From Marinobacterium stanieri (GTDB lineage Bacteria; Pseudomonadota; Gammaproteobacteria; Pseudomonadales; Balneatricaceae), in assembly GCF_900155945.1 (NCBI RefSeq), contig NZ_FTMN01000004.1, positions 124,001 through 188,000 on the forward strand: a stretch of DNA of 64,000 nt. The letters are read 5' to 3'. Positions 62,236-64,000 of the stretch are shown here, piece by piece. Position 1 is the first letter of the stretch. The number at the start of each line of letters is the position of its first letter. The translations under genes were made by a program, and so were the position numbers. Below the pieces are notes generated by a model, which saw only the letters and a list, made by a program, of their open reading frames with translations, had not been told where the DNA came from and did not search any database.

Positions 62236-64000
62236 ATGAGTGAACAGAGCCTGTCGCCGCTGCATACCCTGGAACAGCAGGATGCCTTCATCAGCCGCCA
62301 TATCGGCCCATCTGCTGAAGAAACCGCTGCCATGCTGGAAACACTGGGCGTTGATAGCCTGGATACGCTGATCAACGAAACCGTGCCCGGCAGCATCATG
62401 GTGGAACAGCCAATTCCCCTGCCCGGTCCGAAAACCGAGCATCAGGCTCTGACCGAACTCAAAACGATTGCCCAGCAGAACCAGATCAAGCGCTCCCTGA
62501 TCGGCATGGGCTATGCCGATACGCTGGTGCCCAATGTTATCCTGCGTAATGTGCTGGAAAACCCGGGTTGGTATACCGCTTACACGCCTTATCAGCCGGA
62601 AGTTTCCCAGGGCCGCCTGGAAGCAATTTTGAACTTCCAGCAGGCCATTCTGGACCTGACCGGTCTGGACCTGGCCAACGCCTCACTGCTGGACGAAGCA
62701 ACCGCTGCCGCAGAAGCCATGACGCTGTGTAAGCGCATGAGCAAGGCCAAGAAAGCCAACGCCTTTCTGGTAGACGACCAGCTGCATCCGCAAACCATCA
62801 ACGTGATCCAGACCCGCGCCGAGCCGCTGGGCTACGATATAATCGTGGGTGATGTGGAAAGCCTGATCGACGAGCACGAAGCCTTTGGCGTGGTAGTTCA
62901 ATATCCGGGCACCCAGGGCAACATCCGCAATTTCGAACCTCTGATCGAGAAAGCACACGGCAAAAAAGCGCTGGTTTGCGCTGCTGCCGATCTGATGAGC
63001 CTGGTGCTGCTGAAATCACCGGGTGAAATGGGCGCCGATGTCGTCTTCGGCTCCGCCCAGCGCTTTGGCGTCCCCATGGGCTACGGCGGCCCGCACGCGG
63101 CATTCTTTGCCACCCGTGATGCATACAAGCGCTCCGTGCCCGGCCGTATCATCGGTGTGTCTGTTGATACCCGTGGCAACCCGGCCCTGCGCATGGCAAT
63201 GCAGACGCGCGAACAGCACATTCGCCGTGAGAAGGCGACCTCCAACATCTGTACCGCACAGGTGCTGCTGGCCAACATGGCCTCTTTCTACACCGTGTAT
63301 CATGGCCCCGAAGGCCTTAAAACCATCGCCAGCCGCATCCACCGCCTCACTGACCTGCTCGCCGCTGGCCTGCAGCAGAAAGGCATGGAACTGGCTCATG
63401 ACACCTGGTTTGACACGATCACCCTGAATGCAGGTGCCGTCCGTGACCAGCTGCTGCAGGCAGCACTGGAAGCCGGCTTCAACCTGCGCAAGCTGGGCGA
63501 TGACCAGATCGGCATTACCCTGGATGAGCGCAGTGACCGTGCTGAAATCGAAGCCCTGTGGACTGCCCTGTTGGGAGCTGGTCATGGCCTTGATATCGAG
63601 GCTTTGGATGCAGAACTGATCGCTCGCGGAGCGAGCTCCCAGAATACTGAGCAGCCTGCCGAAACATCTGAGGACTCCCCTGTGGGAGCGCACTCTGTGC
63701 GCGAAAGCATCCCGACAGAACTCAAACGCACCTCAGCTTTCCTGACCCACCCGGTATTCAACGAATACCACAGCGAAACCGAGATGCTGCGCTACCTCAA
63801 GCGCCTGGAAAACAAGGACCTGTCGCTGGCCCATAGCATGATCGCGCTGGGCTCCTGCACCATGAAGCTCAACGCCACTGCCGAGATGATCCCGGTAACC
63901 TGGCCCGAGTTTGGCGCACTGCACCCCTTCGCTCCGGTCGATCAGGCGCAGGGCTACAAAACGATGATCGATTCCCTGGAAGAGATGCTCAAGGCCATTA
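62236..64000 (+). CDS. gcvP: Glycine decarboxylase P-protein (3' end outside window)
   Basis: First 588 codons. N-terminal [45 protein letters not shown], and after the linker [23 protein letters not shown] and [14 protein letters not shown] region ([16 protein letters not shown]). It is the PLP enzyme that decarboxylates glycine in the cleavage system. Between residues about 460 and 495 lies an extra peptide encoded by a REP-like pair (63621-63707), in frame and without stops. No gcvT or gcvH is visible, and no glycine riboswitch upstream. Confidence 0.95.
63621..63707. repeat. REP-like palindrome pair inside the gcvP coding sequence
   Basis: CGCTCGCGGAGCGAGCTCCC at 63621-63640 is identical to 14805-14824. 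The second element starts CCTGTGGGAGCGCACTC at 63679. They are 58 bases apart, against 56 in the first unit of the intergenic array, and the sequence between is related. It encodes the peptide from [11 protein letters not shown] to [11 protein letters not shown] in the gcvP frame. Confidence 0.9.

Follow-up and report, generated by a model that had tools for sequence, protein, structure and literature searches.

Can a mobile repeat become part of a housekeeping enzyme and leave that enzyme working? The question is raised by gcvP of Marinobacterium stanieri, which runs into the end of the stretch of DNA analysed here (64,000 nucleotides, hereafter the window). An initial reading of the letters, made without database searches (the sequence-only reading), had proposed that a REP-like palindrome pair lies within the gcvP frame, and both of its cores were found there, in frame. 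The features concerned are listed below.

62236..63999, plus strand: gcvP, encoding glycine dehydrogenase (P-protein), with matches to PF02347 (622 bits) and TIGR00461 (801.9 bits)
63619..63642, minus strand: first REP core of the gcvP pair, CTGGGAGCTCGCTCCGCGAGCGAT on the minus strand, a 6-pair hairpin
63643..63681, plus strand: spacer of the gcvP REP pair, 39 bases
63682..63705, plus strand: second REP core of the gcvP pair, GTGGGAGCGCACTCTGTGCGCGAA, a 6-pair hairpin
14803..15431, plus strand: tandem array of related REPs after rpsA; the ORFs over it are without a Pfam match

The window contains the first 588 codons of gcvP, and the TIGR00461 score of this protein, truncated by the window end, falls below the 859.2 cut-off. 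In the genome the frame runs for 1003 codons from stop to stop with no internal stops. The two cores are inverted, minus then plus, and are translated in the gcvP frame as I-A-R-G-A-S-S-Q (left) and V-G-A-H-S-V-R-E (right). The right core carries the tag GTGG and the left core CTGG, one change from GTGG.

The sequence-only reading had also matched the first 20 bases of the pair to the copy after rpsA. The identity stood and the coordinates moved by 1-3 bases, the 20-mer TCGCTCGCGGAGCGAGCTCC being located at 63620-63639 and 14804-14823. Its proposed 2-base difference in spacing (58 versus 56) was borne out, the core starts being 63 bases apart in gcvP and 61 in the rpsA-side copy; the whole pairs share 76% identity over 102 bases. 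Genome-wide, TCGCTCGCGGAGCGAGCTCC occurred at nine places exactly, gcvP included, and at one further place with one mismatch, compared with none for the reversed control. Within the rpsA-side array (14803-15431), like-oriented copies are spaced 137, 136, 135 and 136 apart, and a GTGGGACC variant recurs every 135-137 bp.

These copies belong to a REP family with many scattered members, most of them intergenic. A generic REP pattern (at most one mismatch) gave 95 matches in the whole genome and none for its reversed control, which excludes a chance origin of the gcvP REPs. Three of the 95 were judged by context (conserved genes) to be chance, leaving 92 REPs. Of 72 neighbouring pairs, 36 were minus-then-plus, more than in any other arrangement, and the right core in gcvP, GTGGGAGCGCACTCTGTGCGCGAA, is identical to other REPs of the genome in the right-type pattern search. 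This GTGG-type family is nearly absent from seven congeners: the right-type pattern had 79 matches here, at least one of which (C8:746916) looks like chance, versus 0 or 1 per congener, and the left-type pattern 39 versus 0 to 5. The genome also has a single Y1 transposase match, which passes the NCBIfam model for REP-associated tyrosine transposases (RAYT; NF047646, 138 bits, cut-off 80), and REPs of the same GTGG-type family flank its gene, among them a perfect 25-bp inverted pair on the upstream side. The tag of the REP superfamily is described as 5' GT(A/G)G (PMC3686654). With a GTGG/GTAG-type tag and an imperfect palindrome, the gcvP elements fit the REP definition; as inverted REPs close together in a genome with a REP-flanked RAYT, the pair fits the REPIN/BIME unit. 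That it is instead a chance low-complexity linker or an assembly artefact, with no REP insertion behind it, is extremely improbable. The genome is a draft of 24 contigs, which leaves some room for such an error, but exact matches of 20-24 bases to a dispersed REP family with zero control matches, the gcvP frame intact over 1003 codons and the REP-derived inserts at the same gcvP site in two other genomes of the genus all argue against it.

In the P-protein, the GDC-P domain match reaches to residue 444 and the GcvPB match, which the window end keeps below its model cut-off, begins at residue 477. This places the insert in the linker joining the two homologous halves, where the sequence-only reading had put it. 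The listed alignments to three solved P-proteins break at the insert too. In an AlphaFold2 model, residues 466-488 had pLDDT values below 50 and the flanks values of 83-91 and 90 or more; this model covers the truncated 588-residue part, used 26 sequences, has a mean pLDDT of 69 and contains other stretches that are equally poor. The genome has only one gcvP match, and dN/dS values of 0.067-0.091 against five congeners demonstrate purifying selection. This genome's branch in the tree of gcvP proteins measured 0.054, which is within the range of the six congeners (0.007-0.073) but exceeds five of their branches.

We further investigated gcvP across relatives, including the seven congeners (G001-G007; this genome is G000). 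Of 57 genomes searched, 54 gave a gcvP match; the loci of 30 of these 54, this genome included, were aligned with the best 80 of 574 to give 110 loci, the other 24 matched genomes being left out. The stretch between the LW and HP motifs was 37-47 residues long in 107 of the 110 (80 of the aligned loci being the best 80 of 574) and 66, 57 and 55 residues long in the remaining three, namely this genome (66) and congeners G002 and G005. Relatives without the insert, for which the sequence-only reading had proposed to look, have a shorter linker, and an equally long one was found in none of the 107 other loci in this alignment. At the same site, the inserts of two congeners differ in length from this one. 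The short form was present in G001, G004, G006 and G007, and no gcvP match was found in G003 when the congener genomes were searched. The nearest named loci among the best 80 of 574 belong to Amphritea and Nitrincola (67-70%). Compared to uninserted congeners, this gcvP has a net gain of 69 bp, or 23 residues; the about 30 residues first proposed as the addition overstate the gain. About 29 codons (residues 462-490) are REP-derived. Where the insert begins and ends is ambiguous, since ATCGCTAGCGG, the linker native to G004, already resembles a REP end (by eye). The REP is inside a recognised gene, in frame and missing from most orthologues, and across the related species one gcvP site can be seen empty, filled or partly decayed.

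The closest filled site is that of G002, which groups with this genome at 94-100% support in a tree of seven concatenated genes (8529 nucleotide columns; G007, G013 and G021 were without several of the genes and G004 without the beta-CASP gene). Its left REP differs from the one here at 2 of 27 bases, and its right half did not significantly resemble any of seven REP consensus strings (best p versus shuffles, 0.245). No Y1 transposase match was found in the G002 genome. Elsewhere in G002 only one other, decayed REP pair was matched, while the left REP in gcvP is nearly intact.

Such retention counts in favour of a rival reading, that the REP has been recruited, its hairpin (as DNA or mRNA) or its peptide being useful and kept by selection. 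The left REP of G002 has changed little although dS is about 0.87, and it has been kept in a genome with no Y1 match and one other, decayed pair. In the second filled congener, G005, the two arms of the left palindrome have changed in concert (GCTCGC/GCGAGC to GCTTGC/GCAAGC), preserving a 6-pair hairpin. However, when this genome was compared with G002 across 932 nine-codon windows of gcvP, 19.8% were as conserved (at least 25 of 27 bases) and 9.9% kept at least eight of nine third positions, so nucleotide-level selection on the left REP was rejected as not remarkable against these windows. The right half, moreover, is not recognisable in G002 and has lost its hairpin in G005 (three pairs kept, z 0.08); the whole insert stretch does not stand out in RNA folding (z -1.32) and does so modestly in DNA folding (z -2.08); and the paired arm change in G005 can equally be the insertion of a different REP variant. 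No benefit of the insert emerged from the tests of window conservation and of RNA and DNA folding, and we consider recruitment unlikely.

We are instead fairly confident that a doublet of the genome's own GTGG-type REPs, most likely spread by the RAYT, came to lie in the gcvP linker, where it is a tolerated passenger in a functional enzyme. This reading draws directly on the identity of the REPs, their frame, their absence from most relatives, the purifying selection on gcvP and the REP-flanked RAYT. From what is described for the family (PMC8266576), the RAYT most likely moved the doublet into gcvP via single-stranded DNA. The insertion into the interdomain linker probably predates the split of this species from G002, its nearest relative. 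Its survival is explained by REP cores that are stop-free in six frames (the three REP consensus strings contain no stops in any), by a net length that is a multiple of three and by an unstructured linker. If translated, as we infer, the insert would make the P-protein 23 residues longer and still functional, presumably as a neutral passenger.

To place gcvP among other genes of this genome, 26 stretches around its REP matches were loosely scanned, giving 110 candidate REPs, at least one of which is doubtful and chance-like (L138:3777). Twelve of the 110 lay in frame in four genes with Pfam domains: two in gcvP, two in a photolyase, one in a beta-CASP metallo-hydrolase and seven in a DUF4194/MksE-like gene. 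Those outside gcvP sit in linkers or a tail. These genes, and two of G005, are as follows.

G000:C11:115719-116921 (locus L144:1520-2722), minus strand: DUF4194/MksE-like gene, seven in-frame REPs in the C-terminal tail
G000:C11:229990-231423 (locus L149:1791-3224), minus strand: photolyase, REP pair between its two domains
G000:C11:207276-209006 (locus L148:4577-6307), minus strand: beta-CASP metallo-hydrolase, Cys-rich insert of roughly 90 residues with a REP at its end
G005:C3:80860-82347 (locus L201): beta-CASP orthologue of G005, GTAG-family REPs in frame
G005:C3 near 79174 (locus L218:551-1951), minus strand: UDP-sugar dehydrogenase, in-frame REP (VGASPAGE) within the NAD-binding domain

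Like-oriented copies in the DUF4194/MksE-like array repeat with an exact period of 135 bp, or 45 codons, and the orthologues of the seven congeners are without the array. The photolyase linker of G004 holds a different palindromic REP-like stretch (VGARAARD), and similar peptides occur in the photolyases of G005 (IGARSARD) and G002 (LGVRQSRE), where the scan found no REP. In the beta-CASP gene, the REPs of G005 lie at the same linker as in this genome and at a second site, and the orthologues of G001, G002, G003, G006 and G007 are without the linker insert. The 12 REP-pattern matches in G005 make up seven loci, three of them in frame in the gcvP, beta-CASP and dehydrogenase genes; the REPs around the G005 RAYT (L131) fall outside this search pattern and are not among the 12. 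Two of these three genes, gcvP and beta-CASP, are REP-bearing in this genome too. The same linkers seem, then, to carry REPs in more than one related species.

Coding REP pairs had a mean of 4.5 of six frames open versus 2.6 for 64 other neighbouring pairs, with only eight coding pairs in the comparison and six of these from one gene. A further 24 ORFs over REPs either were without a Pfam match or had the REP ahead of the likely start. Rejected candidates include ORFs in L132, L151 and L141, with Pfam matches absent; L148:465-1643 and L154:1792-2451, which are real genes with the REP ahead of the likely start; and 19 ORFs of 104-304 residues over this genome's own REPs plus one of G005 (L160), all without a Pfam match. 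The ORF scan covered lengths of 100 residues and above, apart from a few ORFs of 102-106. From a 35-sequence set, nine were dropped (L050, with a stop codon, and eight others).

The distribution of REPs along the genome was uneven. Contig C11 (388 kb, 8.3% of the genome), the one holding the window and not picked beforehand for the density test, contains 47 of the 92 REPs; grouped into clusters separated by more than 2 kb, they form 28, of which 13 lie on it against an expectation of 2.3 (binomial p 1e-7). C11 also carries all four of the REP-bearing genes identified. In G005, the contig with gcvP, about 5% of that genome, has 7 of the 12 REP matches. Part of the target coincidence between the genomes could therefore come from shared local density.

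This coincidence bears on whether the gcvP site was filled once or twice. A single gain requires losses in G004 and G001 that restored the ancestral linker; two gains require the same site and similar ends. An independent second insertion in G005, making gcvP a recurrent REP target, could well have occurred, though we stop just short of favouring it. It would agree with the species tree, (this genome, G002),((G005, G004), G001), in which G004 and G001 lack the insert and have a GSxSIP linker like the outgroups; with the flanks of the G005 insert, which resemble G004 (by eye); and with the beta-CASP linker, where the REPs of this genome and of G005 are of different families. Conversely, both ends of the gcvP insert coincide between this genome and G005, and the right half in G005 agrees with this genome's REP family in 16 of 20 bases, a score equalled by 0 of 2000 shuffles, and fits it better than G005's own GTAG-type REPs (p 0.37-0.89), which points to one older shared insertion followed by losses. 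The tree itself joins G005 and G004 at only 67-95% and these two with G001 at 97-100%. An exchange of a long stretch of gcvP among species was also considered and not seen; the G005 flanks resemble G004 (by eye). More tentatively, and on balance doubtfully, the process may be general: RAYT-driven REP pairs would repeatedly and independently seed the same linkers (gcvP, beta-CASP, photolyase) from each species' own REPs, a REP-dense neighbourhood would act as a nursery of linker peptides, and some peptides would outlive their palindrome (VGARSARE, VGARAARD and IGARSARD in photolyase).

Read as a tolerated insertion of the genome's own REP doublet, the gcvP site illustrates clearly how a mobile repeat can turn into protein within a housekeeping enzyme. 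Together with the three other REP-bearing genes it makes up a set of natural cases in which one can readily ask if REPs are merely tolerated or are a source of linkers, and the set also bears on whether RAYTs prefer particular regions or sites.

From another lineage, the Rickettsia palindromic elements (RPE) are known, repeats that lie within genes and are read through in frame. The gcvP pair resembles these in being palindromic and in frame inside a gene. The sequence-only reading had called in-frame palindromes best known from Rickettsia, which is to be qualified, as intragenic REPs are in print for several other genera in an article that also mentions RPEs (PMC3733652). That article (BMC Genomics 2013) describes intragenic GTAG/CGTC REPs, singlets and dimers, in frame in known genes, so the kind of event seen in gcvP was already known. 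It reports that the dimers encode 20-30 residues, proposes flexible linkers or loops as tolerant sites, and includes two Xanthomonas recB genes with REPs at about the same site and a REP in a Thauera photoreactivating enzyme gene. We found no report of a REP in gcvP among the papers that our literature searches listed; the main text of PMC3733652 contains neither gcvP nor glycine, its gene list being in the supplement. Our case differs from those in that article in its GTGG tag, in that the locus was followed through congeners, and in that one linker (beta-CASP) holds different REP families in different species. The REPINs described for Pseudomonas fluorescens (PMC3116915) are, like those here, inverted doublets with a GTGGGAG-type start (in group I) and REP-flanked RAYTs. 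However, the REPs reported there are almost all extragenic, only 14 of the 1,067 commonest 16-mers overlapping genes, whereas here 12 of the 110 candidates in the 26 stretches lie in frame in four recognised genes.
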